From Mycolicibacterium fluoranthenivorans (GTDB lineage: Bacteria > Actinomycetota > Actinomycetes > Mycobacteriales > Mycobacteriaceae), in assembly GCF_011758805.1 (NCBI RefSeq), contig NZ_JAANOW010000003.1:372001-436000 (forward strand): a stretch of DNA of 64,000 nucleotides. The letters are read 5' to 3'. Below are positions 29,805-55,191 of this stretch, piece by piece (positions within the stretch are counted from its first letter, which is position 1; each line of letters opens with the position of its first letter). A program made the position numbers and the translations under genes. Under the pieces are notes generated by a model that was given only the letters and a program-made list of their open reading frames with translations, was not told the origin of the DNA and made no database searches.

Positions 29805-29985
29805 CTCTGCCTCCCATGTGTCGTGTGAGCGCGGTGCCCTGGTTCGTGTAACGCCGGCGACGCTCTAATTCTTTCCTAATCTGGAAAGTGCTGACCATCG
29901 CCACGCCGGGGGCACCAAGAAACCCGTCTTGAGCAGGCGTTTGGCTTCGCGGTACCCCGGTGCGATACGCTGTCGTGGCTTCACG

Positions 29986-30059
29986 CGGGGTGTGGCGCAG
30001 CTTGGTAGCGTGCTTCGTTCGGGACGAAGAGGTCGTGGGTTCGAATCCCGCCACCCCGA
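29986..30059 (+). tRNA. tRNA-Pro (anticodon CGG)
   Basis: A 74-nt cloverleaf: acceptor CGGGGTG/CACCCCG, D-arm with GCTTGGTAGC, anticodon stem CTTCG/CGAAG around loop TTCGGGA (anticodon CGG), T-arm GTGGGTTCGAATCCCGC, discriminator A; CCA is not encoded. It follows the Rv3684-like gene as proU does in M. tuberculosis. The integrase gene begins 53 bp downstream and points towards it, so its 3' half is the likely attachment site. Confidence 0.95.
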
Positions 30060-30079
30060 CTCGTGTGATCGCAGGTAGA

Positions 30080-30108
30080 GGCCCTGACCGGGAATTCCGG
30101 TCGGGGCC
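30080..30108. terminator. Terminator between tRNA-Pro and the integrase
   Basis: GGCCCTGACCGG (30080-30091) pairs with CCGGTCGGGGCC (30097-30108), 5-nt loop and one T-G pair, followed by TTCTTACTT. It serves the tRNA and perhaps the convergent integrase. Confidence 0.8.
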
Positions 30109-30111
30109 TTC

Positions 30112-31281
30112 TTACTTCCCAGTCCGCAGCTGGTCCGCAGTGGCTGCCAGAGACCGCATTCGCGCGGCATCTAGTGCAACTGAAACTTGCTCCAGGTCGT
30201 CGGGGAACAGGTCGGCATACGTATCCAGGGTCAAGACCGCAGAAGCGTGTCCCAGCATCGTCTGAACAGCCTTGACGTTGGCCCCGGCGCTGATCGACAA
30301 GGACGCTGCCGTATGACGAAGGTCGTGAGGCGTGACGGTGGGATACGCCGGGTCTGCTTCCTGAAGCCGTTGGACAGCCATGTTGAACACCCGCGGCCGC
30401 CACGTCGACACTCGCAACAATGCTCCGCCGGGTGACGTGAACACCAAATCGTCTCGTCGCTTGCCGATCATGATCGCGGCCAGCGGATCAGCAAGGAACG
30501 CAGGGAAGGGCACCGAGCGACGCTCGTGGGATTTGGGTGACGACCACACCACACGTCCCTTGACCTCGGCGACCGCCTCACGGATATTTACCCTCCGGCG
30601 GAGCATGTCGAAGGACTCCACCCGTAGCGCTGCCATCTCGCCCCAGCGCAGCCCGGTGTAGGCCAGGAATCGAACAACAACGGCGTACTCGCCGACCTCG
30701 CGGGCCAGAAGCTCCACCTGCTGGTGTGTCAGGTAGCCCCGCGCTCGGTGCTGTCGTCGCGGCGACTTCACTCCTGTGCACGGATTGCGGGGGATCCGTC
30801 GATCGTCGACGGCCATCTCCAAGATCTGCCTCAGGACGCTGAGCGCGTTCTCGATGGTGGCCGGTTTGGCTCCGCCCGCCGCCAATTGCTGCACCCACGC
30901 CCTGATATCCGACGATTGCACGTCGGCTACAGCGACCGCGGCCCACCGGCCTTCGACGTAGCCCGACCAGGCGAATGCGCGTGTCGCAACCGTCGTCTCC
31001 TTCAAATGACCCTGTGTGCCAAGCCATTTCCCATGCAGCTCACGGACGGTGATGCGCCCGGCTTTCGGCGCGACATAGGTGCCGATCGTCTGAGCGGCCG
31101 TGATCTCATTGAGAAAGGCCTGAGCGTCCACCTTGCGGTCGAACGAACGCGTGTTCTCCCCGCCTTGATCGTCGACGTAACGGGCCAACCAGCGGCGGCC
31201 CATACCGCTACGTGCGGTGGGGCTCCCGTCTGATCGACGCCACCGGTCCTCGACACCAGCCCGACGGTTTCGTCGCTGCAA
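30112..31281 (-). CDS. int: Tyrosine-recombinase integrase
   Basis: About 389 residues. An N-terminal arm-binding region (GRRWLARYVDDQGGENT) is followed by a SAM-like core domain (KPATIENALSVLRQILEMA) and the catalytic domain with Arg in TGLRWGEMAAL, HDLRHTAASL (His-x-x-Arg), LGHAS and the Tyr nucleophile in LDTYADLF. Such enzymes recombine attP with a tRNA attB. TTG 31281 is chosen because AGAGGAGG lies about 8 nt before it and gives the usual N-terminus; GTG 31311 or ATG 31434 would add 10 or 51 residues. Confidence 0.93.
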   Translation of the reverse strand: MQRRNRRAGVEDRWRRSDGSPTARSGMGRRWLARYVDDQGGENTRSFDRKVDAQAFLNEITAAQTIGTYVAPKAGRITVRELHGKWLGTQGHLKETTVATRAFAWSGYVEGRWAAVAVADVQSSDIRAWVQQLAAGGAKPATIENALSVLRQILEMAVDDRRIPRNPCTGVKSPRRQHRARGYLTHQQVELLAREVGEYAVVVRFLAYTGLRWGEMAALRVESFDMLRRRVNIREAVAEVKGRVVWSSPKSHERRSVPFPAFLADPLAAIMIGKRRDDLVFTSPGGALLRVSTWRPRVFNMAVQRLQEADPAYPTVTPHDLRHTAASLSISAGANVKAVQTMLGHASAVLTLDTYADLFPDDLEQVSVALDAARMRSLAATADQLRTGK

Positions 31282-31448
31282 GTCGACCACCTCCTCTACC
31301 GCCAGTTTCACACCGACCACCGACAGCCGACGAAAGCGTTCGGCTGAAGTCAATTTGTAGGCGAAGTTGAGGGTACTGGTGGACAAATGCAGGGCGCCAC
31401 CACCACCGTTGGATTCGTTGACAGAACCCACCATTGAGGAGCAGCTAC

Positions 31449-31646
31449 ATGGATCTACTGAGCGCCAAACAGGTTTCGGACATCATCGGCGTCCCCGTTG
31501 GAACTCTCCGCTACTGGCGCCACTGCGATATCGGGCCGGCCAGTTTCACCTTGGGCCGCCGGGTCGTGTACCGGCGCGACGAGGTACTGCGATGGATCGC
31601 GGAACAAGAAACCGCGACCCGGCGGGGAGGCGGAGACGCCGCGTGA
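31449..31646 (+). CDS. Excisionase/AlpA-like helix-turn-helix protein
   Basis: A 65-residue protein: MDLLSAKQVSDIIGVPVGTL, then RYWRHCDIGPASFTLGRRVVYRR and a WIAEQE helix. This is the MerR-like winged helix of excisionases and AlpA regulators. ATG 31449 follows GAGGAGC. It is divergent from the integrase and likely sets the direction of recombination or island expression. A small hairpin follows. Confidence 0.85.
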   Translation: MDLLSAKQVSDIIGVPVGTLRYWRHCDIGPASFTLGRRVVYRRDEVLRWIAEQETATRRGGGDAA

Positions 31647-31660
31647 ACCGCGCCCACGAA

Positions 31661-31689
31661 AAAGACCCCGGGGCCTAGCCGAGGTCTTT
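31661..31689 (+). terminator. Hairpin after the excisionase-like gene
   Basis: AAAGACC (31661-31667) pairs with GGTCTTT (31683-31689) around a GC-rich loop, 15 bp past the stop codon. Confidence 0.55.
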
Positions 31690-31779
31690 GTTCGAACCAC
31701 CTGATCATCCGACACGGAAGTTCCACATGAGAATAGCTCGTCAACGCAGCCTGCATAAGCACGGTGTGCAGGAAATCCT

Positions 31780-33363
31780 ATGAGCGACAACACCGAGACG
31801 GACAAGAAGTCGGTGGCCGCGCGCTTGGTCGGCATGGCACAGGAACGCTACCTGCTCGGACTCTCCGATGAGGGTGAGCCGTTCGGAGCTGACCGCGATC
31901 GCCCGCACTTGGTCATGCTCCTCCGCGCCGGCAAGGCCGGTCTACGCGCCGACCTAGCCGCACGGTACTTCGCCGAGACCGGCGCGGTCGCCGGCGGCCA
32001 GGCCCTGACTGACGCCACGCTGATCCTTGAAGGATTGGCTGCCACGAAGCCGCCCGAACGCCTGAACCTCCGCGTCGCTGACGATGACGGCACGATCTAC
32101 ATCGATACCGGACTACCCAACGGCCAGGTGATTCGTATCCGACAGGGCCGGTGGACGCTGACCGAGCGGGCACCTGTGCGCTTTCTACGCACCAAGTTGA
32201 CCGGAGCGATGCCGCTGCCGGCTCAGGGCGGGGATATCGAGAAGCTCTGGGATTTCGTCAACGTCGACTTCGAAGACCGACCGGTCCTCCTCGCTGCCCT
32301 CATTGCCGCTCTTGTCCAGACCGACGTCCCACACCCGATCTTGGCGCTGTTCGCCGAGCAGGGCAGCGCCAAGAGCACAACCACACGCATGCTGGTCGAT
32401 CTCATCGACCCGTCACCGGTTCCCCTACGGCAGGCACCGCGTGATTCCGATTCGTGGGTCACTGCGGCGTCCGGGTCGTGGGTTGTTGCCTTGGACAATC
32501 TGTCGACGATTCCGCCCTGGTTGTCGGATTCCCTGTGCCGTGCCGCCACAGGCGACGGCAACGTCAAACGGGCGTTGTACACGGACTCCGATCTCGCGGT
32601 GATCAAATTCCGGCGGTGCGTCATCATCAACGGCATCGACGTCGGCGCAGTGCGACCCGACCTCGCGGAGCGACTGGCGACAGTCGACCTGCGACGCATT
32701 GATCGCCACATGCGACAACCGGAAGCCACGATGCGACAACAGTGGCGCACGGCTCTACCAGGCATTTTGGGCGGGCTTCTTGATCTGGCCGCCGTGGTTC
32801 ATCAACGGCTGGAAACCATTTCGGTCGACGTGTCGCCACGGATGGCGGACTTCAGTCGCACGCTGGCGGCCGTTGACGAGATTCTGTCGACCCATGGCTT
32901 CCGGCGTTACTTGTCACGCGCCAGTCAACTCTCCGAGGACAGCCTGTCCGCCGACCCGTTCATCGAACAGCTAAGGCTGCACATCCGGGAACCACTCATC
33001 GGAAAGTCCGGCGGCGACCTGCTGGCGACAGTCACGCCGACCGGCGACACCTGGCGCAGACCAAAGGAGTGGCCTCGGAACGGCCGGGATGTCACAGCCG
33101 TCCTGCGACGGCACGCACCTGCGCTCCGGAGTCTGGGTTGGGCGATCGAAGACGATGGCGCTCGAAATCATCGGAACGTGCTGCTGTGGACCATCTATCC
33201 GCCCTACAAAGATGTGTCGGCCAAACAACCCTCGCAATCCTCGCGTCCCTCGCGCATTTCGGCTCCGCGTGAGCTGTCGTCCTTTGTTCAAGATCTGCCG
33301 GCGCCCCGCCAGACCATCCCGAACAAGCATTCGGGCGACAATCTCGACGTCGAGGCCTCATGA
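31780..33363 (+). CDS. Island P-loop ATPase, replication-type
   Basis: A 527-residue protein. The N-terminal third (AARLVGMAQERYLLGL; DDGTIYIDTGLPNG) resembles the front of 'ATP-binding' proteins from mycobacterial prophages and islands; the middle has a P-loop (FAEQGSAKSTTTRML, about residues 190-204), then LVALDNLSTIPPW-like and VIINGIDVGAVRPDL segments of an AAA/SF3-type helicase module. The C-terminal tail is polar. It probably acts in island DNA replication. ATG 31780 follows CAGGAAAT. The stop overlaps a 28-codon ORF as ATGA. Confidence 0.7.
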   Translation: MSDNTETDKKSVAARLVGMAQERYLLGLSDEGEPFGADRDRPHLVMLLRAGKAGLRADLAARYFAETGAVAGGQALTDATLILEGLAATKPPERLNLRVADDDGTIYIDTGLPNGQVIRIRQGRWTLTERAPVRFLRTKLTGAMPLPAQGGDIEKLWDFVNVDFEDRPVLLAALIAALVQTDVPHPILALFAEQGSAKSTTTRMLVDLIDPSPVPLRQAPRDSDSWVTAASGSWVVALDNLSTIPPWLSDSLCRAATGDGNVKRALYTDSDLAVIKFRRCVIINGIDVGAVRPDLAERLATVDLRRIDRHMRQPEATMRQQWRTALPGILGGLLDLAAVVHQRLETISVDVSPRMADFSRTLAAVDEILSTHGFRRYLSRASQLSEDSLSADPFIEQLRLHIREPLIGKSGGDLLATVTPTGDTWRRPKEWPRNGRDVTAVLRRHAPALRSLGWAIEDDGARNHRNVLLWTIYPPYKDVSAKQPSQSSRPSRISAPRELSSFVQDLPAPRQTIPNKHSGDNLDVEAS

Positions 33364-33446
33364 CCGCGCTCGTCGTCACGGCTGCGCCGGACCTTTCGGG
33401 CACAATCAGCACCACGTCCCTCTACGTGAGGAGTTGGTGTCCGTGA
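33360..33446 (+). CDS. 28-residue coupled ORF between two island genes
   Basis: MTALVVTAAPDLSGTISTTS then LYVRSWCP. Its ATG overlaps the upstream stop as ATGA and its TGA overlaps the next GTG as GTGA, and it holds the next gene's AGGAG site. The double overlap supports translation; it may serve only as a coupling leader. Confidence 0.4.
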   Translation: MTALVVTAAPDLSGTISTTSLYVRSWCP

Positions 33447-33901
33447 GCGCGCAATTCGAGGCGATCGCCCAGGCGGTCATCCACGACTGGCCTGACTACG
33501 GGTGGTCCGGCCGATTGGAGGCGGCCATCAAGCAGCTGTATCTGTCAGAACTTACTTATCCGGCAACATGGTCCAGCGACCGTTGCGAGGAGTTCGCAGA
33601 GAGCCACGCCGGCGACGACGCGCTCCTTCTCACCAGCTCACTGGACGACCTCATCGATACCGTCACAGATTGCTATGTGCGCGATCACGGAGTTCTCCCC
33701 CATCGTGACGATTCAGCTCTGTTACTTACAGCGGCGCGTCGGGACGTGCTCGACGAGCTGGAGCTCCGGTTCGCGGCTGACCTACCTGCCGAGATCGCCG
33801 CGTTGACAGCCCACGGTGTTGGAAGGGCAAATGGCTCTCTGACGGCGTGCGGGCCGGCCCAACGGCGGCAGAGCAGCACACTGCGCCTAAGCCGTTCTTA
33901 G
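33443..33901 (+). CDS. Island hypothetical protein
   Basis: A 152-residue acidic, helical protein: VSAQFEAIAQAVIHDWPDYG onward, with LEAAIKQLYLSEL, a DDALLLTSSLDDLIDTVTD segment and a C-terminal basic end. No known motif. GTG 33443 lies 9 nt after AGGAG; GTG 33437 is too close to it. It is third in the coupled chain with the island ATPase, so it may help the same process. Confidence 0.55.
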   Translation: MSAQFEAIAQAVIHDWPDYGWSGRLEAAIKQLYLSELTYPATWSSDRCEEFAESHAGDDALLLTSSLDDLIDTVTDCYVRDHGVLPHRDDSALLLTAARRDVLDELELRFAADLPAEIAALTAHGVGRANGSLTACGPAQRRQSSTLRLSRS

Positions 33902-34068
33902 GTAGGTTCCGTTTTGCGGCGGCACCATCCGCTTCGAAATGGCCTTTCGCACTCCCGTGTCGACAGACGAGATGCGATCGAGCGGCGCATAGATCCCTTG
34001 AAGCCGCGTTCGCTATTTCCGGACCGGGGGCGCTGCCTCTCCTGCTCCTCATCTCTGACGATAGCGCC

Positions 34069-34102
34069 TACACTTGTCGGTAGGTGCATCTAAGGTGCAT
34101 CT
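34069..34102 (+). promoter_or_regulatory. Promoter and twin 10-bp repeats before the three-gene module
   Basis: A -10-like TACACT (34069-34074) is followed by AGGTGCATCT at 34082-34091 and again at 34093-34102, an 11-bp period (one helical turn) at the expected transcription start. This looks like an operator, perhaps for the HTH protein encoded downstream. Confidence 0.45.
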
Positions 34103-34118
34103 CTATGGACAGGACAGT

Positions 34119-34955
34119 ATGACCATCGATCCACACACACTTCGCCCAGCTGAGGACGTTCCATTGGGGGGGCTGCCCTCGGCCGATCCGACCCTGCTCG
34201 GAAACGCTCCCCTCGAAGTCGCAGTGATCGAGATCCGGTATACCGCCCGTACCGACGAGATCACACCGGAGGTCGCCGCTGCTTTCCGGGACGACCTTGT
34301 GGAGAACACGGGGGTGGACTTCCCGAGCATTCAACCCACCGTTCAACAGCAGATGAGGATCGACTTCGGGGCCAACGGCGTTGCCCAGGTGGCAGCGGAG
34401 TCCAGTGGGTGGCAAATTGCTTCCGCGGACGGAGCACACGTCACGCTCATGCCCGACATCCTGATCATGCAGGTCAACCGCTACGAGCGGTGGCGTACCA
34501 GCATGAAGGCTCCGCTAACCGTTCTGGTCGAATCTCTCGGACGGTTAGTCAAGCCATCGTTGGTGCACCGCATCGGTCTGCGGTACGTCGACCGCTTCCA
34601 TGACAGTGGGTTCAACTCTGCAGAGGCTTGGCGTGGCCGGATCGACGACACCCTTCTGGGCCCTGTGCTTAACCCAGTGTTCGGCGGCAGTGTTCGAGGT
34701 GCTCAACAGCAGGTGGAGATCCGGCTTGATGATCATCACGGCGCGTTGCTGCGGCATGGACCAGTTCGCGATGATTCGGGCAAGTGCGTGCAGTATCTAC
34801 TCGATACGGACGTGTTCCGCCACTCCTCATTCACGTTCGACGTGCGAGAGGTCGTCATCTCAGCGGAGCGGCTGAACCGCACTTCGTTGTCACTTTTTCA
34901 GGCGTCGGTTACCGATACCTACCTGAAAGAGCTTCGAGAAGGGAGCGCGAAATGA
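34119..34955 (+). CDS. TIGR04255-family protein, first gene of a three-gene island module
   Basis: A 278-residue protein. Features typical of the TIGR04255 family: an early LGNAPLEVAVIEIRYT strand, DILIMQVNRYERW, and LVHRIGLRYVDRFHD. The family is widespread, often next to an unknown partner gene, and has no assigned biochemistry that I know. ATG 34119 follows GGACAG. Its stop overlaps the next ATG as ATGA. Secretion or membrane signals are absent. Confidence 0.75.
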   Translation: MTIDPHTLRPAEDVPLGGLPSADPTLLGNAPLEVAVIEIRYTARTDEITPEVAAAFRDDLVENTGVDFPSIQPTVQQQMRIDFGANGVAQVAAESSGWQIASADGAHVTLMPDILIMQVNRYERWRTSMKAPLTVLVESLGRLVKPSLVHRIGLRYVDRFHDSGFNSAEAWRGRIDDTLLGPVLNPVFGGSVRGAQQQVEIRLDDHHGALLRHGPVRDDSGKCVQYLLDTDVFRHSSFTFDVREVVISAERLNRTSLSLFQASVTDTYLKELREGSAK

Positions 34956-35704
34956 CGATCATGGAGCAGCAGCCGACCGGCTCCCGCGTGCTCCGGTCAC
35001 CTTCCTGGGCCCGAGCACAAAAGGGCCTGTACCCGGCCCCTTGCGAGGACGGACTCTGGTCCAGCACGTTCGTGGAGATGAGTTCATCGCCGGGGTTGCG
35101 GGATGTCGTCGCGCATTTCTCTGGAGCCCTCGACCCGTGCGGATGGGATCAGGTTCGCGTCGAAGTTTTCAAGAGTCTCGACGGGCAGATGAACCTTCCG
35201 GGCTCGGCGCTGTGGTTGACGATGCCGTATACATTCATCGATACGGTGCTGTCCGACGAGCAACAGGTCGACGAGACGGTCGACGTTCTTGATGCCTTCG
35301 AACGAATCCGAGCCGAACTGGGCCTAACGCAGAAGGAGATGTTCAAGGCCACCGGCATCAACAAGCGCACGTTCCACTCGTGGGCGGCAAAGCCCCCCGC
35401 CAGCCGGCCCCGTGTAGCCAGCTTGGGTGGACTGTGGGAGTTGGCGGACGCCGTCGACGACCTCCGCAGCACACTGGACCAGCCGATGAACAGGTGGCTG
35501 CGTGCCGACAAGAAGCGAGCCTCCGCACTACTCGACGGCCGGTTCGACGACCTCGTTGACCTGGCTGTGGATCGGACGCCGTTCCCTCGGCGAGAGATCG
35601 GCACTTCGGTATACGAGGGGATCGCCGAACACGTCGAGACACCGATCATTCGAACCGGTGGTCCGGTGGTGACCGAGAACGTCGAGGACGGATTCGCCCG
35701 GTGA
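34952..35704 (+). CDS. Helix-turn-helix protein, second gene of the module
   Basis: A 250-residue protein with an N-terminal unknown region and a central helix-turn-helix (AELGLTQKEMFKATGINKRT, then FHSWAAK; about residues 130-155) of the XRE/antitoxin Xre-MbcA type, and a C-terminal segment WLRADKKRASALLDGRFDDL that resembles the MbcA/ParS/Xre toxin-binding tail (DUF2384-like, weak). It would be a DNA-binding regulator or antitoxin. ATG 34952 overlaps the first gene; its stop overlaps the third gene's GTG. Confidence 0.65.
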   Translation: MTIMEQQPTGSRVLRSPSWARAQKGLYPAPCEDGLWSSTFVEMSSSPGLRDVVAHFSGALDPCGWDQVRVEVFKSLDGQMNLPGSALWLTMPYTFIDTVLSDEQQVDETVDVLDAFERIRAELGLTQKEMFKATGINKRTFHSWAAKPPASRPRVASLGGLWELADAVDDLRSTLDQPMNRWLRADKKRASALLDGRFDDLVDLAVDRTPFPRREIGTSVYEGIAEHVETPIIRTGGPVVTENVEDGFAR

Positions 35705-36582
35705 CTATTGATCGACTCCTGCCGGAGCGATGGCCCCCGCACACGCTTCTCGCTCTGGAGCGGTGGCGGCAAGGGCATCTTCTCCCGATGGATCGCGGCG
35801 CATGGATCGTCCCAGCGTGGGTAGATGACCCTGTAACCGGAGAACCCGCTGCCGATGGAGCGTTGGGTGAGGTGCGTGCTCGGTCAGCACCATTGAGCGA
35901 CAGCGGGTATGCCGCGGTGGTGTCACAGACCTGCGACATTGCGGGCGGTCCCGGGATGCGGCATCCGCTGGTGCAGGCATGCCCGGTACGCGACATCTCA
36001 GTCTTTTCGACGGAGAAGGTCCAGCAGATCAAAGACCATCAGCTCTCCGACTACGTCTGGCTAAGTGAGCCTCCGGTTCCTGGAGCGGTTTGGGCCGTGG
36101 ACCTGCGCGCGATCGTTCCGGTCAGCAAGGGTTTGCTCGCTGCGCAGGAACCGGTCGTGGGGTTCGCCTCGATTGAGGACGAGCTCATTCTCGGACAGCG
36201 CCTTGCCAGCAAACTTGGCCGGCCTGCTGTGCACGATGCGCTTGCCGGTCCGGTATTCGAAGCTCTGCGCAAACTCATTTCGAAGGCGAAGAAGTCGCAG
36301 GACTGGTGCGATGACGTCGAACAGCTTCGTTTGGAGATCGTCGAGGGGACCACACTGTATCCGAAGCGTGTGCGACTACTCGTGCTGACAGACGTCCGCT
36401 TCGGACCGTCGGAGAAGAAACCGCTTCGCGACGAATGGAAGTCCCATCGGAAGTCATTGAACGCCGCCGGGATTACTTGGGAACCAATCCATTTCCTCAC
36501 GGTCGACAAATGCCCCGTGCGACTCTATCGCGCGTCGGTACCCATCGAAGCGCCGACTCTCGAGCGCGGACGGTTTGCATAG
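35701..36582 (+). CDS. SQTCDI-motif protein, third gene of the module
   Basis: A 293-residue protein from GTG 35701. It has the motif AAVVSQTCDIAGG (about residues 71-83), often seen in uncharacterised proteins with a Cys next to Asp that suggests a metal or thiol site, followed by VFEALRKLISKAKKSQDWCDD and YPKRVRLLVLTD. Cysteines are few (about 5). No known family recognised. GTGA overlap with the HTH gene shows strict coupling, so the three products probably work together. Confidence 0.6.
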   Translation: MTIDRLLPERWPPHTLLALERWRQGHLLPMDRGAWIVPAWVDDPVTGEPAADGALGEVRARSAPLSDSGYAAVVSQTCDIAGGPGMRHPLVQACPVRDISVFSTEKVQQIKDHQLSDYVWLSEPPVPGAVWAVDLRAIVPVSKGLLAAQEPVVGFASIEDELILGQRLASKLGRPAVHDALAGPVFEALRKLISKAKKSQDWCDDVEQLRLEIVEGTTLYPKRVRLLVLTDVRFGPSEKKPLRDEWKSHRKSLNAAGITWEPIHFLTVDKCPVRLYRASVPIEAPTLERGRFA

Positions 36583-36890
36583 ACCCACTCGGGGTGTCCG
36601 CCTCACCAATCGCACAGCTGATTTCGGACAGGGTGGCCCCACGTACCTATCGAAGCACGCCGCGGTCCGCTCCCGGCCGGATCGCGGAGTCAGAAGGCAG
36701 GTTACGAGCGACTGCGCTCACTGGCGACGGATCCGCCCTAGGGCGCTCGGCAACGCCGATGCCGATGTTGCGCAGGACGCACATCGATTGCCTGGCGGGT
36801 TATCTGCCACGTGACCCAGGTTACGCAGCGCGCATCACGCGGGCACAACGGGCGTTGACGACCAGATGATCGATACGGTTGCTGAGCCGT
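36583..36890. other. Gap after the three-gene module, no gene seen
   Basis: 308 bp; reading frames here are short and lack start signals. It may hold the 3' ends of two convergent transcripts; I see no strong hairpin. Confidence 0.5.
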
Positions 36891-37688
36891 TCAGGCGCGA
36901 TACGGATAAACAGCTTTGGCGAGATCACGCGCCGCCGTCAGAGTCGCTCGGTCGAGGTCCTTGTGCCGTGCCCGTTCCGTGAGCCTCGCTAGCAGCGTGC
37001 ACAGCGCCCGCTCGTCCCGGGAGGCAATGTCTGCGGCGTCGAGCGCGCTGACAGGGACAGGAGCCGGTGAATCTTCAGGCGTCAGGGCGAGGTCGGTCGC
37101 GGAACCGGCCCTCGGCACCTCGACGACGCGGATCGGCGTTCCGTGGCGCTCGGCAGCCATGCGTGCAGCAGATGAGTCGCGCCGACACGTGTCCGAGCAG
37201 TAGAGCCGGCGGCGTCCGCGACGTGGCCTGTCTTCAGGATCCATCATCAACACATCGCATCGCACGCACCGCGGCCACTCCGTGTCCACACGAGCGTCGC
37301 GCCATGCATCAGCGCGCGCAGCCGGTTGCTTCTTAACGGTTTTCGCCGCCTTGCTGCGCAGCAGCGCGCGTATCTCTCTGACATCAACACCGACCAGCTC
37401 GGCGATAGCCGCCAACGTCGCGCCACGTTCCCGCATGTCCTTGATCGATGCACAGGCTTCCGCGTAATAGCGGCTGCGCCTGCGCTGCGCCTCCGCCTCC
37501 GCTTGCTGGCGAGACTGCGCGACGCGACGGGCCTGCCATTCGTCCACATCCTGCAGGCGTCCGATCAACGCCCGAACGGCGGTCGCGTCATCGGCGTTGG
37601 CACGGTCCTGCTGCGCTCGCACTTCGTTCGCTCGGCGTTGCGCCTCGACGGCGCGACGACGCGCCTCCAGTTTCGACACAGCAGTCAT
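36891..37688 (-). CDS. Coiled-coil / HTH / Cys-cluster protein of the island
   Basis: A 265-residue protein. The first 80 residues are a charged coiled coil (EARRRAVEAQRRANEVRAQQ), followed by an HTH-like segment (MRERGATLAAIAELVGVDVR, then EIRALL) and a treble-clef-like Cys set: CVRC and YCSDTC. The tail is Leu/Ala-rich. This recalls phage or island DNA-binding accessory proteins. ATG 37686-37688. Its codon use is less GC-extreme than the flanks, as in the rest of the island. Confidence 0.6.
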   Translation of the reverse strand: MTAVSKLEARRRAVEAQRRANEVRAQQDRANADDATAVRALIGRLQDVDEWQARRVAQSRQQAEAEAQRRRSRYYAEACASIKDMRERGATLAAIAELVGVDVREIRALLRSKAAKTVKKQPAARADAWRDARVDTEWPRCVRCDVLMMDPEDRPRRGRRRLYCSDTCRRDSSAARMAAERHGTPIRVVEVPRAGSATDLALTPEDSPAPVPVSALDAADIASRDERALCTLLARLTERARHKDLDRATLTAARDLAKAVYPYRA

Positions 37689-38172
37689 GTCGACAACCTA
37701 CGAAGCAACACGAGGTTTGGTCCACGACCACAGCCACATTCGTCTCAGTTCCGCGCGTCGCTCAGCGTCACTTCCGATGGCGCGCCCCGGCCGCTGTCGT
37801 CACTGCCGAGTAACCCGCCCCGCTTGCCACCAAGCCATCCCTGCCAGCCAGTTCCTCCAATTCCGACACACCTCTTGCACTCTGGGGCCAGCACGATCAC
37901 TTTTCGTCGGACGATAAACACGCATCCATCCGCAATGCCATTGACGAAAGTGCTACGGGGTCTCAACGCGAGCAACCGCACTGCGAACGCTGAGGCGGTT
38001 CACGTCGCCTGGCCCGACATAGTCGTCGTGGGCATGCCTGCGATCTGCGTGCACGGCCCCTAGCGAGTGACGGCGAACATTTCGCCGGTGCCATCGCCGA
38101 CGTGACTGGAGTGCAGAGGAAAGTTCGAAGACCAGCCAGACTGGGCGCAGTGAAACTCGTTGTGCTAGAGGG
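37689..38172. other. Unassigned spacer at the island's probable right side
   Basis: 484 bp without a convincing gene. It separates the last island-like gene from the first catabolic regulator, so the second attachment site or its remnant could lie here, but I find no copy of the tRNA-Pro 3' sequence. Confidence 0.45.
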
Positions 38173-38859
38173 CTATGCGAGCGGTCGCCCTGCATGCAGA
38201 CTGGCGGCCTTCACGCGCTTGGTCTCGCCATCGTCGCTCTTGCAGTGGGCGGCGAGAAAGTCGTCGACGAGGTTCACGCAGTCGTCGTGAGTGATGGTGC
38301 GGATCCCGGTCATCCGGGCGAAGGCGAGTGGGCCGACCAGTTGGCACAGCGCCAGTTCTCGGTCGAAGTTCTCCAACTCGGCTTGTGCCTTCGGGCTAGA
38401 GAGTATGGCGTCGAACGGTTGCCGGTACTGGTCGACGACTCGGGCCCGCAACGCGCCGGATGTGTGTCGATCATCGGCTTCGTTCGTCGGGCCGGTGGGA
38501 CCAAGGGACAGCCATGCCAGGGTCGTGACATGCAGTGGCGCGTCGTTGAAAAGAGCGGCTTGGCGGCTTAGCAATTCGATCAGCTGGTTACGCAGAGGGC
38601 CGCTGGTCGGTGTTGGAGTTGCCACCTGTGGAAGCAGTCGCTCGAACGTGGCTGCGAGCAGATGGGACGAACTTTGGAAATGGCGGTAAAGCGTGGTTCT
38701 GGCCACTTTGGACGCTTTGGTGACGGCATCGATCGTGACGGCTTCCACGCCGCCAGTGCTCAGAAGGGTCGCGGCTGCATCCAGCAGTCGATTTCGGGAC
38801 CGGATTCGCCGCGGGTCCACGTCATCGTCAGGGACCGGCGCTGGCTGACTGTCGCTCAC
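38173..38859 (-). CDS. TetR-family regulator
   Basis: A 228-residue TetR protein. The HTH is at about residues 40-62 (AVTKASKVARTTLYRHFQSS). The C-terminal ligand domain is unassigned. GTG 38857-38859 follows AGGTG. It is divergent from a thioesterase gene, with an imperfect palindrome in the 96-bp gap that it probably binds. Confidence 0.85.
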   Translation of the reverse strand: MSDSQPAPVPDDDVDPRRIRSRNRLLDAAATLLSTGGVEAVTIDAVTKASKVARTTLYRHFQSSSHLLAATFERLLPQVATPTPTSGPLRNQLIELLSRQAALFNDAPLHVTTLAWLSLGPTGPTNEADDRHTSGALRARVVDQYRQPFDAILSSPKAQAELENFDRELALCQLVGPLAFARMTGIRTITHDDCVNLVDDFLAAHCKSDDGETKRVKAASLHAGRPLA

Positions 38860-38916
38860 TCAATTCACCTCGGCGGTCGATTTCACGCGATGCTGTCCTG
38901 TCAGTCTAGCATTGTG

Positions 38917-38949
38917 GTACTAACGGTATCGAAGCGAAACCGATAGTAT
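38917..38949. promoter_or_regulatory. Likely TetR operator in the divergent promoter region
   Basis: GTACTAACGGTATCG (38917-38931) and CGAAACCGATAGTAT (38935-38949) are inverted repeats with 12 of 15 matches and a 3-bp spacer, just before the thioesterase gene. Confidence 0.55.
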
Positions 38950-38955
38950 TGGAGC

Positions 38956-39474
38956 GTGATTGTGCCGGAAAGCGCGTCGCTGCCGAAGCGGTTACCTTCG
39001 CACACGACAACGTGCATGGGTTGCGGCCCGGACAATCCCCACGGACTGCAGTTGGTGGTGCACCGCAGCGGCGACGCGGTGTACTCCGACGTGATTTTCG
39101 ACGAGCGCCACATTGGGGCTCCTGGGCTGGCCCATGGCGGAGCAGTTGCGGCGGCGTGCGATGACGTCTTGGGATTCACATTGTGGATCGCCGGCACACC
39201 AGCGGTGACTCGCAGCCTGACAGTGGAGTATCTGCGGCCGGTACCTCTGCATCAACCCCACAGGATCACCGCCCACATCCGGTCCCGCGAAGGACGGGCT
39301 CTGCACGTCATGGCGACGGGCACTGATTCCGATGGGGCCAACCGCTTCACCGCCACTGCGGTATTTGTCGCGGTCAGCACGGATCACTTCGCTGCGCACG
39401 GCGACGTCAGTGCTTTTGGCGGCCTTCTCGAACAGTTCTCACGCCACGGCGGCCTCGACGACGGGCGATCATGA
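38956..39474 (+). CDS. PaaI-type hot-dog thioesterase
   Basis: A 172-residue hot-dog fold protein. It starts with the Cys motif CMGCGPDNPHGLQL, followed by GLAHGGAVAAACDDVLGF, the active-site helix of PaaI-type acyl-CoA thioesterases, and TRSLTVEYLRPVPL. It should hydrolyse acyl-CoA. GTG 38956 is close to the palindromic operator. Its stop overlaps the next TetR gene start. Confidence 0.85.
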   Translation: MIVPESASLPKRLPSHTTTCMGCGPDNPHGLQLVVHRSGDAVYSDVIFDERHIGAPGLAHGGAVAAACDDVLGFTLWIAGTPAVTRSLTVEYLRPVPLHQPHRITAHIRSREGRALHVMATGTDSDGANRFTATAVFVAVSTDHFAAHGDVSAFGGLLEQFSRHGGLDDGRS

Positions 39475-40142
39475 CGCTCCCCCTTTCTCGCAGCCATGGC
39501 AAAACCCGACCGCTGGAGGCAAATTCAGCCGGCGGCCGGACGCGGACCGCTGTAGCGCCCGCCTCGCATTCATCCACCCAGCGCCGGGAAGCGATTCTGG
39601 ACGCGGCCCTGCTCGTGGCCACGTCAGGTGGCTATGAGGCGGTTCAGATGCGGTCGGTCGCCGAGCGGGCCGGTATCGCCGTCGGCACGCTCTACCGCCA
39701 CTTCCCGGCGAAAACCAACTTGTTGGTGGCGGCGCTGACGCGCGAGTTTCGCCGACTCAACTCGGCTGACGACTGGGCTAGCGGTGACGGCACGCCACTG
39801 GAACGGCTCGAACGTCTCACCACACACCTACATGACCGCTGGCAGCGCGACCCCTGGCTGACATCAGCCATGACACGAGCCTTCGCCGTTGCAGACACCC
39901 GGGCAGCCGCAGAACTAGACAGCGCCGCCGCCGAGATTCAGAACCTGCTGGCCCGCACGCTCAGGGGCGGCGAACCGACTCCCGCCGATTTACACATCGC
40001 CGCGATCATCTCCGACGTGTGGCTGGCCAACCTCGTGGCCTTCAGTGGCCACCGAGCGTCGGCCGCCGCTACCCGCGAACGCATCGACCTGGCCACTCGG
40101 CGCGTGGTGACCAGCCGCGCACGACCCGCGGAAACCGCATAA
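39471..40142 (+). CDS. KstR-like TetR regulator
   Basis: A 223-residue TetR protein whose HTH (RSVAERAGIAVGTLYRHFPA) and LTSAMTRAFAVADTRAAAEL / IISDVWLANLVAFSG regions closely resemble KstR of the cholesterol catabolism regulon. Identity as a paralogue is judged by eye. ATG 39471 overlaps the thioesterase stop (ATGA), so one mRNA makes both. A palindrome downstream (40143-40159) could be its operator. Confidence 0.8.
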   Translation: MTLPLSRSHGKTRPLEANSAGGRTRTAVAPASHSSTQRREAILDAALLVATSGGYEAVQMRSVAERAGIAVGTLYRHFPAKTNLLVAALTREFRRLNSADDWASGDGTPLERLERLTTHLHDRWQRDPWLTSAMTRAFAVADTRAAAELDSAAAEIQNLLARTLRGGEPTPADLHIAAIISDVWLANLVAFSGHRASAAATRERIDLATRRVVTSRARPAETA

Positions 40143-40159
40143 CGATACTAGTAGTATCG
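40143..40159. promoter_or_regulatory. 17-bp perfect palindrome, probable TetR operator
   Basis: CGATACTA, G, TAGTATCG: 8-bp arms around one base, directly before the DUF6188 gene. It shares the CGATA half-site with the operator at 38917-38949. Confidence 0.6.
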
Positions 40160-40217
40160 CAGCGCTACCTAAAGTACCCTTAGGGCGAGGCTCGATGACG
40201 CGGCGAAGGAGAGTGCC

Positions 40218-40682
40218 ATGTATACCCAATGGATCGAAAATTGTGTCGTGCAACGCGTCTCCGTGCGCGACGGCCTGGTCCTGGACCTGGACGACTACAA
40301 CGAGATTGTCATCTCGTGTCCCTTGCTGCTGACACTGCCTGCGTTCGACCGGTATCCCGTAGAAGCGGTGCGCATCGATCCACTCAAGATCGCGACAGAC
40401 GAACGCCCGTTGTTGAACCTCGCCGGCGCGGTGTGCACTCAAGCCTGGTCCGGCGACGATGGAGGGCTACACCTGAGGTTCTCGCGTGGACACAGCATCG
40501 ACGTCGACCCCGATTCCGAGGAAACGGCATGGGAGTTGTACGGCAAGCGCCACGGCTACATGGCATGCCTACCCCGGGGGCGGGTACGCGTGGTTCGCCA
40601 CGACCTCCCCGACAGCGACGACGCCAACATCGTCAACAACGCCGCACAACTGTCGGCGGGGTCGGCGCGACAGACGCACTAA
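40218..40682 (+). CDS. DUF6188-like protein
   Basis: A 154-residue protein: WIENCVVQRVSVRDGLVLDL, then YNEIVISCPLLLTLPAF and a two-layer beta pattern, ending with YMACLPRGRVRVV. It resembles DUF6188, found widely in actinobacteria without a known role. ATG 40218 follows AAGGAGAG. A palindrome lies in its promoter. Confidence 0.65.
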   Translation: MYTQWIENCVVQRVSVRDGLVLDLDDYNEIVISCPLLLTLPAFDRYPVEAVRIDPLKIATDERPLLNLAGAVCTQAWSGDDGGLHLRFSRGHSIDVDPDSEETAWELYGKRHGYMACLPRGRVRVVRHDLPDSDDANIVNNAAQLSAGSARQTH

Positions 40683-40729
40683 ATGCGACCGCGGACGGGG
40701 ACGGGTCAACTTCGGCGGCAATGCGTGGA

Positions 40730-41779
40730 TCAGATTGAACGTGGACCGGACTGCCCTGGCGACATCGAGGCGGGCGAGCATTCCCGAATGATGCTGTCGA
40801 GGTTTTGCTGCACGCGCTCGGGAGCGATGCCAACCGATGGTGAATACAGCATGATGTGGTCCAGGACGCCGTCGTAGCGGCTCAGTTGTTCACGGACCTC
40901 GTCTGCCGTCCCGGCGACACCCATGGTGTCGATCATCTCCTCCGACACCGCGGCGAACATCGCCGGGAAATCGCGCTGGGCGAATGCTTCCCGGATGGTT
41001 CGGCCTTCGCTGGCGAAGCCGTTTACATCGAGTACCGTCTCGTACGATTTGACCGAGGAGTAGAACGCAATCTGCTGCGCCAGTTCGCGCCTCGCAACCT
41101 CGGCGTCGTCGTGAATGGCGCACATCACCATGGAAATGATTTCCACGTCATTGGGGTCGCGGCCCGTGTGCGCGGCACCCCGGGCGATAGCGGGCCGGAC
41201 GATCTCCTCTACGTAGGTGGTCGTGAACAGGGGATGTCCGGCCAGGCCGTCGGCCACCCGCCCGGCCGCCTCGCACATCCGGGGCCGAACACCGGCAGTG
41301 ACGATCGGGATCGCCCGGCTGGAGGGTCCCACGTCGCCGGTCGGGGTGAGATTCATTCTGTAGAAACGGCCCTCGTGATGGATCGGGCCTTGATGCAGGT
41401 TCCATATCCGGCGCAGCAGCATCACGAGTTCTTCCATCCGCAGTGCGGGTGCGGAGGTGTCGGGCACGCCGTGCCAGTCGCTCATCATCCGTTTGGTGCC
41501 GTTGCCGATGCCCAGCACCAGTCGTCCGTTGGAGAGTTCGTCGAGGTCGCGCGCCTCGGTGGCCAGCACCAGGGGACTTCGGCCGACGCCATAGAGAATG
41601 GAGGAACCGATCCGGCAGTTCTGTGTGCGGTTGGCCATCGCGGCCATGGAGATTGATCCCGACCGGGAGTAGAACTCCGAGGCCCATACGGCGTCGAACC
41701 CGGCCGCGTCGGCGGCCTGTGCGGTCTGGGCCAGTGACTTCAAATCCGCGCCGAGAACCGACAGGCCGTAGGTGCTCAT
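40730..41779 (-). CDS. F420-dependent LLM-class oxidoreductase
   Basis: A 349-residue TIM-barrel protein of the luciferase-like (LLM) class. Motifs: GFDAVWASEFYSRS (about 28-41), ATEARDLDELSNGRLVLGIG and VADGLAGHPLFTT. These families use F420 or FMN; F420 is inferred from the mycobacterial host. ATG 41779 begins MSTYGLSVLGAD; the open frame upstream is 71 codons longer but lacks family residues. Likely redox step in the local catabolic cluster. Confidence 0.82.
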   Translation of the reverse strand: MSTYGLSVLGADLKSLAQTAQAADAAGFDAVWASEFYSRSGSISMAAMANRTQNCRIGSSILYGVGRSPLVLATEARDLDELSNGRLVLGIGNGTKRMMSDWHGVPDTSAPALRMEELVMLLRRIWNLHQGPIHHEGRFYRMNLTPTGDVGPSSRAIPIVTAGVRPRMCEAAGRVADGLAGHPLFTTTYVEEIVRPAIARGAAHTGRDPNDVEIISMVMCAIHDDAEVARRELAQQIAFYSSVKSYETVLDVNGFASEGRTIREAFAQRDFPAMFAAVSEEMIDTMGVAGTADEVREQLSRYDGVLDHIMLYSPSVGIAPERVQQNLDSIIRECSPASMSPGQSGPRSI

Positions 41780-41960
41780 GACCGGTCTCCTGTGCGCGGG
41801 CGCGGCCCGTCGAATATGACGGTGCTGACCCGTGGCCGCCGTCTGGTGGAGGTGATCCTCGGCGACCAGGTACATGAGTGCGTTGATGGTGTTTGCGTCG
41901 AGCGGGGTAAGAGACGTGGAACGCGCGCGGCCAGCCGTGCGCCACCTCCAAGGCTGGTGC

Positions 41961-42515
41961 TCAGCATCTTCCCTCCCTGGGTGACCGCACAATGCAGGGT
42001 GTCGAAGTAGCCTTCTGTATGGAACTAGTGAAGTGCGCCATCGTGACGACGACGAATAACCCTGAGGCGGACGCGACTAGCTGACCGGTAGTCTCCTCGC
42101 GCAATTCTGTCCGGACTTCGAGTTTCCGGCCGGTCTTGGACACCAGCTCGGCGCTGACCTCGTAGGGGACCCCCAGCAACACCGGCGCGTAGAACTCGGT
42201 ATCGAACTTGCGGGTGACGGCCATCTCACCGACGACGTACAGCAACATGCCCACCATGTCGTCGAGTACGGTCATGACTGCGCCGCCATGTGCGATACCG
42301 GGTGCGCCGCGATGTCTGCCGTCGAAGATATGCCTGGCACCCACCCCGTCGCCATGCCGACGCGCTCGCAGGCGATGACCGTGCGGATTGTCTGTGCCGC
42401 AACCAAGGCACCACGGGTGGTGCGCATCAAGGTAGTCGCCGTCGGCGGCGACAGCACGATTCTGAAAGCTATGCCACCATGCGATGGCCGAATCTTCTTC
42501 CGCTTGCTCTTCGAT
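41961..42515 (-). CDS. Hot-dog thioesterase with no canonical start codon
   Basis: The conserved domain needs residues upstream of the first GTG (42344): the same frame encodes HPWCLGCGTDNPHGHRLR and then GARHIFDGRHRGAPG and IAHGGAVMTVLDDMVG. The frame stays open back to a TAG at 42528-42530. AGGAGGG (42523-42529) lies 7 nt before ATC 42515 (4 nt before GTC 42518), with no ATG, GTG or TTG in between. So it starts at a rare codon, or its ATG was lost by mutation. PaaI-like acyl-CoA thioesterase, paralogue of 38956-39474. Confidence 0.65.
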   Translation of the reverse strand: MEEQAEEDSAIAWWHSFQNRAVAADGDYLDAHHPWCLGCGTDNPHGHRLRARRHGDGVGARHIFDGRHRGAPGIAHGGAVMTVLDDMVGMLLYVVGEMAVTRKFDTEFYAPVLLGVPYEVSAELVSKTGRKLEVRTELREETTGQLVASASGLFVVVTMAHFTSSIQKATSTPCIVRSPREGRC

Positions 42516-42769
42516 GACGAAACCCTCCTAAATAGACCCTCGTAGCGCGTGGTTCACCACACGACTGAAGAATTGCGCCGGCGTCGACTGGGCTGATCGC
42601 CGGTAGATATGTATGTAGGACTCGTTAGCCCGCCGAGATCATCGCTGCGACACACCTTCCGATTAGGACACTGTCGGCTATCTGGTCCTGCCCGTAATCC
42701 CTTGGACTGCAGTGTATTCATAGCCGGCCAGATCGCGTCACAATGAACTGGCACACAGTCCGCAGCGCC

Positions 42770-43438
42770 TCACAACTCCTGGGAGAAGGCGTCACGCTGG
42801 GCTCCAGCGCCAGCCATGAGCGGGCCGTACCGGTGATGCAACTCTGTAACGATGTCGGTGAAGGGGAGATCGTGGTACCAACCGCGGTCGTTGAGGTACT
42901 CCATGTGTTGGCTTCCCCCACCGTCGTAGGCATGGAGGAGCGCATCGGTGTGGCCGTCGAAGTCGATCGGAGGTACACCGAATCGCGCGCAGAGCTCGGC
43001 ATTGAACGCCGGAGTGGCCTTCACCCAGCGGTTGTTGAGTTGTAATTCGCTATATCCGTGGTAGACGAACACGTCGGTACCTCCCATCCGGGCACGCAAT
43101 GTGGTGGTCTGCAGATGGTTGCGCACGTCCGCGAATCCGAGCCGGGCCGGAATGCCCGCCGCACGAGCTGCCGCGGTCAGCAGCACCGCCTTCGGTATGC
43201 AATACGCCCTCGACGCTGTCGCTACATAGCTCGCCCGATAATGCTCGGGATCGTCGTCGGTGCTATAGGGATCGTACCAAATCCTGTCCCGCACAGCGGT
43301 GAAGATCAACCTCGCCTTCTGCACAGGGTCACGAACGTCACCGACCGCGTCCTCGGTGAAGCGCTGTACATCGTCGTGCTGCCAATCGAGGAACCCAGTT
43401 GTCTCCAGGAAACTCGATTCGTTTGAAGTGTCGCTCAC
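42770..43438 (-). CDS. Transglutaminase-like domain protein
   Basis: A 222-residue protein with a transglutaminase-type core: the Cys in SRAYCIPKAVLLTAAARAAG, the His in VFVYHGYSEL and a downstream Asp-rich region (PPIDFDGHTDALL). Many such domains act as cysteine peptidases or as amide-forming enzymes in peptide biosynthesis. ATG 43438 overlaps the end of the BtrH-like gene as ATGA, so the two are coupled. Confidence 0.75.
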   Translation of the reverse strand: MSDTSNESSFLETTGFLDWQHDDVQRFTEDAVGDVRDPVQKARLIFTAVRDRIWYDPYSTDDDPEHYRASYVATASRAYCIPKAVLLTAAARAAGIPARLGFADVRNHLQTTTLRARMGGTDVFVYHGYSELQLNNRWVKATPAFNAELCARFGVPPIDFDGHTDALLHAYDGGGSQHMEYLNDRGWYHDLPFTDIVTELHHRYGPLMAGAGAQRDAFSQEL

Positions 43439-44535
43439 AGATAGCCTTTCAGATAAGCCTCGAGGCCGGTATCGACAGTGCCAACGGATCGACTGGCCGT
43501 TTCGAGGGCTTCGACGAGGCGTGTTTCGGAGTCCGGGATCGTCGCGGCGATTTTGGCCGCAGCGAGACTACGACTCCGTAGCGATGTGCCGGCATCGGTG
43601 GCTGCGGCCGCAAGCTCAGACCACGCTTGGGAAGCGTGTCGGGCCGCGGCCGCCGCTTCGGCTGCGGCGGCGTCCCCGAGGAGATCGGCGATATTCTGGC
43701 AACCTTGTGCTTGCAGCATACGAAAGAGCCCGCCACCGGTTCCGGCTTTCTCGATGAACGCCCCGAGCCCGAACAATGCCGCGGTCAGGGCGTCGTCATC
43801 AAACACCGTTGGCCAATGCCGTACGTCATCGGCGAACTCCTGCACACCCTTCAAACCGGAAGCCTCGACTTCAGCTGCCTCGATGCGCAGTAGCGGCGCA
43901 CCTACGGCACCGCCGCGCATGAAAGCTGCGCTCGCGGCTAATGCAGTGGCGGCAATCGGCCCAAGGTCGGGCACTCGCTCCGGCCAGTCGACGTGATATG
44001 TGGTGTGCCGGGTCGGTGTAGGGAACCCTACCGAGGACCGCGCCCGGCGCAGGTCATCATAAGCCACCGTTTGGGTGGTCTCGCGGTCATTATCGACCAC
44101 ATAGGCAACCCCTTGTTCGTCATCATATCCGGTGATGACGATGTCGTGACGGCTCATGTGCAATCGGACGCGCAGGTAAGGAAGTTCGCCGATGTCAGCC
44201 CAGACCATGACGGGTCGGCCCTTGTCGACTTCGTCGGTAACAAATGACCATCCCACGTCTGCGTCATCGGTCGATCGCACGACGCAGTTTGCACCAACTC
44301 GGGAGAGGTAGTCTTTTTCCAGGTCGCTTCCTCGTCCTACCAGGTAGATCTGGGGAAACAATTGCGTAGAGCGGACGTACGAGAAGTCCAAGGCTCCGCC
44401 GAGGGTGAAGACCAATCCTTCACTGAGTGTTTCTGTCCCCCATCCTAGTTGTGCCCATTCAGTAAGGTCACGCAGCGCACCGGAACCACAGTGCCCTCCT
44501 CTCCTATGGAGATAGGGAATTTCAATCCTCGCCAT
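43435..44535 (-). CDS. BtrH N-terminal-domain protein with DUF4872-like tail
   Basis: A 366-residue protein. The N-terminus (RRGGHCGSGALRDLTEW) with Cys, then HDIVITGYDDEQGVAYVVDN (peptidase C39-like), matches the BtrH N-terminal domain, which in butirosin biosynthesis moves an acyl group from a carrier protein. The rest resembles DUF4872. Coupled to the transglutaminase-like gene. Role may be peptide or acyl transfer; no aminoglycoside genes are nearby. Confidence 0.72.
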   Translation of the reverse strand: MARIEIPYLHRRGGHCGSGALRDLTEWAQLGWGTETLSEGLVFTLGGALDFSYVRSTQLFPQIYLVGRGSDLEKDYLSRVGANCVVRSTDDADVGWSFVTDEVDKGRPVMVWADIGELPYLRVRLHMSRHDIVITGYDDEQGVAYVVDNDRETTQTVAYDDLRRARSSVGFPTPTRHTTYHVDWPERVPDLGPIAATALAASAAFMRGGAVGAPLLRIEAAEVEASGLKGVQEFADDVRHWPTVFDDDALTAALFGLGAFIEKAGTGGGLFRMLQAQGCQNIADLLGDAAAAEAAAAARHASQAWSELAAAATDAGTSLRSRSLAAAKIAATIPDSETRLVEALETASRSVGTVDTGLEAYLKGYL

Positions 44536-44806
44536 CGCCGCTTCCTCTCTTATCCAATAGCACTGTTAACACTCATCGAAAGCTACATACCATCAAGGCG
44601 TCCCGGCTGGCGGTAGGTGCCAGAACTGTTCGACCGCAGCCAATCTCACCCGCGCAGCTCGAGCGCCTATGACTATGGGAAACATTGCTTTCGATCGCTA
44701 TCCCGCATCGAAGCGTCAACGGTGAGAGCCCCTGACCCGCAGCATCGCCATCGTTGTACTGAGCTCGCTTGGTGCCGTTTTGCGCTTCCCTGCTTTGGGT
44801 GCTCTG
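44536..44806. other. Intergenic gap, no gene seen
   Basis: 271 bp between the BtrH-like gene and the end of the alcohol dehydrogenase gene, lower in GC than the surroundings. It holds the promoter of the BtrH-like gene (minus); no conserved motif recognised. Confidence 0.5.
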
Positions 44807-45913: not shown

Positions 45914-45959
45914 ATGTGTCTCCTTAACATCGATGTTTCGGTCGCAGTGGATTGATGAT

Positions 45960-47588: not shown

Positions 47589-47624
47589 CGCACGCCCGTC
47601 CTGCAGCCCGCGGTGAAGCGTCGT

Positions 47625-48035
47625 TCACGCATCGATGAGGTCCTGCCGATTCTCGTTCTGCAACAGCAACCGGTACTCCGGGAACAGGTTCTTGGCCTGC
47701 GGGATCATTTTGATCAGCTTCGCCGCCGGGCCCTTTGCGCGCACCGTTCCCCTGGCCATCGCCATCGTCAGGTTCACCTTGCCCAACCAGAACTTGTTCC
47801 CGGTGTCTGCCGACATGAACAGCTCGACATTGGGCACCGCGGTGCTGTCCGCACCCGTCTCCACCACCTTGTTCGCCATGTCCACTGTCACCACTGCGTC
47901 CGGATCGGTGTAGTGCACCCGCAACACCACACCCGAACTCACGAGCTTATCGGCCAGCCCTTCCTTCTCCAGGCCCCGCCGAAAGATTCCAGCCAGAAAG
48001 GTATAGACCTCGTCCTCATCCTTGAAAACCGCCAT
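47625..48035 (-). CDS. SCP2 sterol-binding-type protein
   Basis: A 136-residue SCP2 domain: VVLRVHYTDPDAVVTVD, FMSADTGNKFWLGKVNLTMA and VRAKGPAAKLIKMIPQA. Such proteins carry lipids or acyl-CoA in a hydrophobic tunnel. ATG 48035 is preferred; TTG 48041 adds two codons. It lies between FadD and the ferredoxin reductase, suggesting it hands substrate between them. Confidence 0.85.
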   Translation of the reverse strand: MAVFKDEDEVYTFLAGIFRRGLEKEGLADKLVSSGVVLRVHYTDPDAVVTVDMANKVVETGADSTAVPNVELFMSADTGNKFWLGKVNLTMAMARGTVRAKGPAAKLIKMIPQAKNLFPEYRLLLQNENRQDLIDA

Positions 48036-50822: not shown

Positions 50823-50848
50823 TACGTCTTATTCCTTTTCGCTCGTCA

Positions 50849-51169: not shown

Positions 51170-51264
51170 TACCGACTCCTCTTAAGTTGCCCTGAATGTG
51201 AATACTTGTTAACAGGATTGTCCAATCCGAGCGCTTCCGCTATGTTTGCGCGGATCAGGAACTT

Positions 51265-55189: not shown

Positions 55190-55191
55190 AC

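Follow-up and report, generated by a model that had tools for sequence, protein, structure and literature searches.

The question raised by this locus is what a tight block of three genes is doing on a mobile element of Mycolicibacterium fluoranthenivorans. The genes, here called A, B and C, lie on the + strand of a 64,000-nucleotide stretch of contig NZ_JAANOW010000003.1 (forward-strand positions 372,001 to 436,000), the whole of which we refer to as the window. An earlier note, made from the letters of the window alone, had proposed them as a phage-defence or toxin-antitoxin unit assignable to no known system. The trio is real, recurrent, mobile and not described in the libraries and literature searched: its genes are adjoining or overlapping, keep a fixed order from one locus to the next and travel as cargo on mobile DNA. 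We take them for a putative toxin-antitoxin or phage-defence unit, and the reading that we favour, with some reserve, is a mobile three-component toxin-antitoxin-like operon with C as effector, B as repressor or antitoxin and A as sensor or co-neutraliser, which would serve maintenance of the element and probably abortive phage defence. The features that carry this reading are as follows.

34082..34102, no strand assigned: twin direct repeat AGGTGCATCT x2, candidate operator of B, with copies at 34082 and 34093 (spacing 11 bp)
34119..34955, + strand: gene A, TIGR04255 family protein of 278 amino acids (aa), predicted duplicated alpha/beta sandwich
34952..35704, + strand: gene B, 250 aa, probable autorepressor or antitoxin with a central Xre-like helix-turn-helix (HTH) at residues ~113-146
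35701..36582, + strand: gene C, 293 aa, probable effector or toxin as judged from its modelled fold, with the [ST]Q-x-CD motif at residues 75-79

The three open reading frames (ORFs) are present at 34119-36582 with the four-base overlaps that the note had described, an ATGA between A and B (TGA stop of A at 34953-34955, ATG start of B at 34952) and a GTGA between B and C (B stops at 35704, C starts with GTG at 35701). A longer reading of A from TTG 34074 would put the twin repeats within the gene, and we therefore infer ATG 34119 as the preferred start. A consensus scan of 33700-37000 found no sigma-70-type promoter. None of the window's A, B and C matched a PADLOC-DB 2.0.0 model at E <= 1, in keeping with the note, which could assign the trio to no known system. 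At other loci two A proteins and three out of four C proteins likewise had no PADLOC match; the C of locus L109 matched a type I specificity model (E 0.003) and the B of L115 the HTH part of RmrA models (E 5e-6). In the literature outside subscription papers and preprints nothing was found on TIGR04255 or the motif strings of C, and none of the titles and abstract openings listed for three-component or tripartite toxin-antitoxin systems describes the trio.

The earlier note had staked its proposal on the three genes occurring together elsewhere, and they do so in widely separated bacteria and mobile DNA. A search with C only found it in 6 of 397 order genomes and a four-row profile in 6 of 396 phylum genomes, 10 distinct genomes together, all of which carry A, a B-type gene and C in the same order. 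A scan of GTDB representatives yielded nine loci (three of them in genomes counted before) from Actinomycetes metagenome-assembled genomes (MAGs), Actinokineospora, Amycolatopsis, a Solirubrobacterales MAG, a Gaiellaceae MAG and two Dormiibacterota MAGs; among the six new ones, five have A-B-C by hidden Markov model (HMM), C being split over two ORFs at L024, and the sixth runs into its contig end just before C. Plasmid searches gave nine records (A in 5, C in 7, both in 3), eight of which were analysed, with Rhizobium acidisoli (27% covered) left out. In all eight, A is followed by a middle gene and a C bearing [ST]Q[TS]CD, and five of the eight are typed conjugative. They come from Chroococcidiopsis, Kocuria, Rhizobium etli (two), Sphingomonas, Sinorhizobium and Vibrio (two), the two R. 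etli plasmids being near-duplicates of each other, as are the two from Vibrio. Scored against profiles built without plasmid rows, A matched in 8 of 8 (E <= 1.1e-26), C in 8 of 8 (E 1e-50 to 1e-5, Vibrio weakest) and B at E <= 1.2e-6 in six, with only 0.005 and 0.014 in the R. etli pair; the middle gene is an annotated regulator in three plasmids and an unannotated ORF in L110 and L113. Integrase-type genes lie near L109, L110, L115 and L116, and phage genes near L113. In IMG/VR a relative of C was found on three contigs, of which two hold the complete trio as judged by HMM and the other is truncated by its contig end; tail-like proteins were seen by eye near the trio on the two full-trio contigs. 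A search of the phage and plasmid collections with the window's own C gave no match, a search of viral contigs with the window's C, the alignment A1 and the C proteins of L111 and L115 returned none, and no E. coli genome with the Vibrio trio DNA was found. Chance co-location was rejected since the trio recurs across phyla, and a housekeeping role, the other finding that the note had named as decisive against it, was checked and is unlikely, given how rare C is in the order and phylum genomes.

All three genes are under purifying selection, the ratio of nonsynonymous to synonymous substitution rates (dN/dS) between the window and the G297 copy being 0.055 for A, 0.133 for B and 0.065 for C, the last with a dS of 1.37, near saturation. 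Over 19 loci the pairwise identities of A, B and C correlate at 0.85-0.90 (0.79-0.86 when the window-G297 pair is left out), which is consistent with joint inheritance of the three. Among nine genus copies A is whole in nine, B in eight and C in seven: C is in two pieces in G273 and G858, whose elements are very similar, and B also in two pieces in G858. C is interrupted too in G261 (one stop) and, as said, in L024. This pattern would fit a presumed effector that is lost first, in small numbers and in drafts that may err.

Gene A is a clear member of TIGR04255 (85.4 bits, cut-off 30), the family the note had named; the family model describes a single protein, and its link to B and C is described here. 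Foldseek against the PDB gave five matches at E <= 0.001, four S-adenosylmethionine decarboxylase/prozyme chains and one RNA triphosphatase, all with low TM-scores, and a viral structure library gave 12 at E <= 0.001, of which the best (E 7e-8) has no name and those with names, again with low TM-scores, are capping enzyme or mRNA 5'-phosphatase proteins of large viruses, LEF-4, a 'histidine kinase' and two uncharacterised proteins. In the phage collection, the A of L012 had one partial match, to an unannotated 6.8-kb record. TIGR04255 was present in 26 of 296 phylum genomes at 29 loci, whose neighbours, classed partly by eye, are a proven C at eight (with an HTH gene between in seven, one of them HTH by eye, and a non-HTH gene in one), an HTH-type gene plus a divergent third gene whose motif is similar but unproven at five, A and B only at one, a HEPN-like partner at two (the one tested had a weak PADLOC HEPN match, E 0.0017), a different pair of small proteins at four and one small protein at three; three are solo genes, all in the window's own genus, and three are cut or unclassed. 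These counts indicate that A is a broader family, for which the pairing with B and C is the commonest setting in this sample. At L060 (A at 3872-4630, - strand) and L074 (A at 4062-4859, - strand) the gene is followed by a protein of 186 or 174 aa and a HEPN-like one of 126-127 aa. At L052, L054, L055 and L057 it is followed by two small proteins, one of ~175 aa that has a 'WDG' or 'WxGxG' motif and then one of ~155 aa, which makes a further recurring architecture.

The HTH that the note had placed in the middle gene has a weak Xre-like match, the score of B against PF20432 (E 6.1e-5, 23.7 bits) falling slightly below the gathering cut-off of 25.8; three of nine B proteins match that model at E <= 0.01. 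The window's B matches a profile of the other B proteins at E 6e-11, and with leave-one-out profiles 7 of the 8 copies tested match the rest at E <= 1.3e-10, B having been first located in several genomes by its position between A and C. Apart from the two copies ahead of A, no exact copy of AGGTGCATCT occurs on either strand of the window, and the twin-repeat layout, also seen in the note, recurs: in a test for 9-bp direct repeats with 8 or 9 matches within -140 to +40 of A, 11 of 18 loci (two of which, the window and G297, are 83% identical) have them, with a spacing of 11 in six and of 12 in five. Any other spacing from 9 to 30 is found at one locus at most, dinucleotide shuffles expect 0.6, and a random-segment control of the same loci gave repeats in 7.0% of 1034, equal to 1.25 of 18. 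The repeats at L028 and L109 lie ~100 bp upstream, and the repeat sequences vary by locus, which would fit a B that recognises a site of its own at each locus. When 16 wider TIGR04255 loci were searched from -140 to +300, a longer range, six had such a repeat, but only three of these lie upstream of the start (L065, L070, L071).

We propose that C, which is predicted to combine a MazF/CcdB-like barrel bearing a conserved Q-x-C-D loop with a second alpha/beta domain, would be the effector, and that B, made directly before it, would bind the twin repeats one helical turn apart to turn the operon off and, alone or with A, hold C inactive. A, the first product of the operon, might use its alpha/beta sandwich to bind a ligand or protein and so sense a trigger, or it might complete neutralisation; engagement of A, by a phage product for instance, or loss of the element would then free C, which would stop growth, with maintenance of the element and probably abortive phage defence as the outcome. 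The lowest dN/dS and first position of A make it likely to be part of the working complex.

This arrangement is like a type II toxin-antitoxin system (MazEF, CcdAB, PemIK) in being a small, mobile operon of coupled, overlapping genes with a presumed DNA-binding protein ahead of a presumed effector, with operator-like repeats, and in the predicted MazF/CcdB-like domain of the latter. It differs in having three genes, an effector of ~290 aa with two domains that does not match PF02452, and an HTH protein where the antitoxins of that class are of the AbrB or ribbon-helix-helix type. In the triplets omega-epsilon-zeta and PaaR-PaaA-ParE a separate DNA-binding regulator stands with two further proteins, antitoxin and toxin; the trio would resemble them in this, but its A and C match no model of these families in the libraries searched. 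The SecB-type toxin-antitoxin-chaperone systems such as CmdTAC (PMC11618068) likewise have three genes with a third component that could sense infection, whereas A is a TIGR04255 protein with no SecB-like fold among the structural matches listed, and no family search labels C an ADP-ribosyltransferase. In CmdTAC the third protein detects a capsid protein of the phage, and its toxin is released (PMC11618068); by this analogy A would be the best candidate for a sensor or co-antitoxin.

Known defence genes stand near some trio-like copies: a ThsB (Thoeris TIR) gene (L064:52-1017, E 5e-115) lies downstream of the L064 trio, whose third gene is divergent, the third gene of L066 is followed by a type III methyltransferase, the A of L071 has a type IIG enzyme close by, and L078 a GajB-like helicase. 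These neighbours agree with a defence setting, and bear on the possibility, which we regard as rather unlikely, that the trio is purely an addiction or stability module, C being the toxin and B with A the antidote, that keeps plasmids, satellites and prophages in place with no phage sensing. Its presence on plasmids, most of them conjugative, on a tRNA-borne element and on viral contigs would suit such a module, as would the type II-like layout with a candidate autoregulatory operator; the conserved third gene A would however be superfluous for simple addiction, and the anti-phage genes beside some copies, counted with no control, also speak against it.

The string 'SQTCDI' named in the note was located in C, which has no match at E <= 1 in Pfam, NCBIfam, PADLOC or PHROGs. 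Its predicted structure consists of an N-terminal MazF/CcdB-like domain (20-174) and a C-terminal alpha/beta domain, and the top 36 structural rows are MazF/CcdB-type. Profile-profile comparison gave no significant sequence homology to PemK/MazF, and PF02452 gave no match at E <= 1 for C or six C-type proteins of other loci; since this sequence test failed, we did not file the trio as MazEF. The third genes of L065, L067 and L073 are relatives of C (probability 94.6-97.4%). Those of L059, L063, L064, L066 and L070 have similar motifs and are unproven as relatives (P 0.04-0.36 singly, 0.12 for the L059/L063/L064 group). The motif of C is present in 17 of 19 C proteins, and D134, R136, K143 and R174 are invariant in the 10 aligned. 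Together with the lack of significant similarity to PemK and a second domain without an assigned role, this conservation could be taken to mean that the trio is a defence system whose enzyme has a new chemistry, with Q-x-C-D, D-L-R and P-V-x-K as an active site acting on nucleic acid or protein and the barrel likeness architectural only. We consider this improbable in view of the structural rows, and barrels of the MazF/CcdB type serve several targets.

Several results weigh against the toxin-antitoxin-like operon that we favour. The model behind the fold of C is moderate (pLDDT 71.4), C had no match at E <= 0.001 in Foldseek alone, the hhalign comparison of C with PemK proteins was not significant (P 0.34), the lower value of 0.011 came from a divergent subset unproven as C, and the catalytic arginine and threonine of MazF, R25 and T48 in B. 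subtilis, are not evident in C on inspection by eye. B is the weakest family, the G508 copy reaching only E 0.12 against the other B proteins, which is not significant; its assignment to B relies on where it lies, on an HTH recognised by eye and on a weak tblastn match (E 0.004). The repeat test was framed after the pattern had already been noticed, and 7 of its 18 loci are without such repeats. The four defence neighbours were picked by eye from 20 regions, and none lies beside a trio with a proven C, the third gene at these loci being divergent or absent. Finally, A need not be dedicated to C, since 3 of the 29 TIGR04255 genes are solo and 9 have other partners.

The element that carries the trio in the window includes the following further features.

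29986..30060, + strand: tRNA-Pro(CGG), presumed attachment site (ARAGORN; similarity to the G116 and G273 elements begins at 29957-29958)
30112..31434, - strand: tyrosine integrase (PF00589 E 7e-19; phrog_1 integrase E 4e-62)
31434..31646, + strand: excisionase-like small HTH protein (PF12728 E 9e-9; phrog_66 excisionase E 1.7e-8)
31780..33363, + strand: 527-aa backbone protein of the element, matched convincingly by no family of Pfam, NCBIfam, PADLOC or PHROGs
33089..33901, + strand: backbone ORF, start uncertain, left border of the cargo slot
36891..37688, - strand: 265-aa backbone protein, right border of the cargo slot (phrog_2308 E 6e-6); 18 of 20 related elements have it on the far side of the slot

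The tRNA-Pro, integrase and excisionase-like gene uphold the satellite-like island of the note on its left side, while its right-hand end was not found, no exact repeat of at least 14 bases of the tRNA end occurring elsewhere in the window. Identity to G116 is 98.7% over 29957-45826, 87.7% over 45837-48100 and 96.9% over 48233-61738, and to G273 98.1-99.9% over 29958-61738, whereas left of the tRNA the alignable pieces of the G116 chromosome reach only 80-88% identity to the window and G273 has no left-flank match within the stretches compared; this difference points to a recent horizontal arrival of the element at tRNA-Pro. A TetR gene like that at 38173-38859 of the window follows elements placed at tRNA-Pro and at tRNA-Leu in relatives, so that the block from 38173 may be mobile too.

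Relatives of the 527-aa gene occur in 32 of 148 genus genomes. Among the 20 loci examined, the slot holds A-B-C in five (L150-L154), is empty in eight (L155, L157-L163), with 43-63 bp between the flanking matches, and contains ~4.7-4.9 kb of other sequence in five (L156, L164-L167), with different genes listed there in every one except L167; two elements (L168, L169) are divergent and without the right-hand marker. A 780-791-aa protein is encoded on the opposite strand in the slots of L156 and L164-L166, the L165 copy being without a PADLOC match at E <= 0.001. Near the distant 527-aa relative of L169 lies a Dsr1-like (SIR2-type) defence gene (L169:9255-12749, PADLOC E 8e-58). In L150 (G858, where B and C are interrupted) a 435-aa ORF, IS256-type transposase-like by eye, lies between backbone and A (sense 6440-7747). 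Compared at the DNA level with L151 and L153, two of L151-L154, the window is 86-98% identical per 250 bp (mean 91%) over the backbone at 30151-33900 and 99.2-100% over 33901-38150, a difference which suggests that the cassette was swapped between backbones along with the 265-aa gene beside it. No integrase, excisionase, 527-aa, left-slot or 265-aa gene was detected around the G297 copy, 83% identical at the DNA level. That the trio is a regulatory or metabolic operon of the element, neither toxic nor defensive and controlling for example excision or transfer, is very unlikely, for although it includes an HTH protein and shares its element with int and xis, the backbone exists without it where the slot is empty and it is also found on unrelated plasmids and viral contigs.

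Beyond the trio, we tentatively suggest that TIGR04255 proteins could be general sensor or guard subunits in bacterial immune operons of a new class, whose effectors would be interchangeable (an HTH regulator with a two-domain MazF-fold effector bearing a Q-x-C-D active loop in the trio, HEPN-like or other small proteins elsewhere), and that the unit might move as a cassette between satellites, conjugative plasmids and prophages. Four phyla and mobile DNA of several kinds carry the trio, although no family of the four libraries matched C and A goes only by the name 'TIGR04255'. Gene order, operator layout and the lead given by the predicted fold of C turn three 'hypothetical proteins' into a testable system, which also hints at the role that TIGR04255 proteins may have with other partners.
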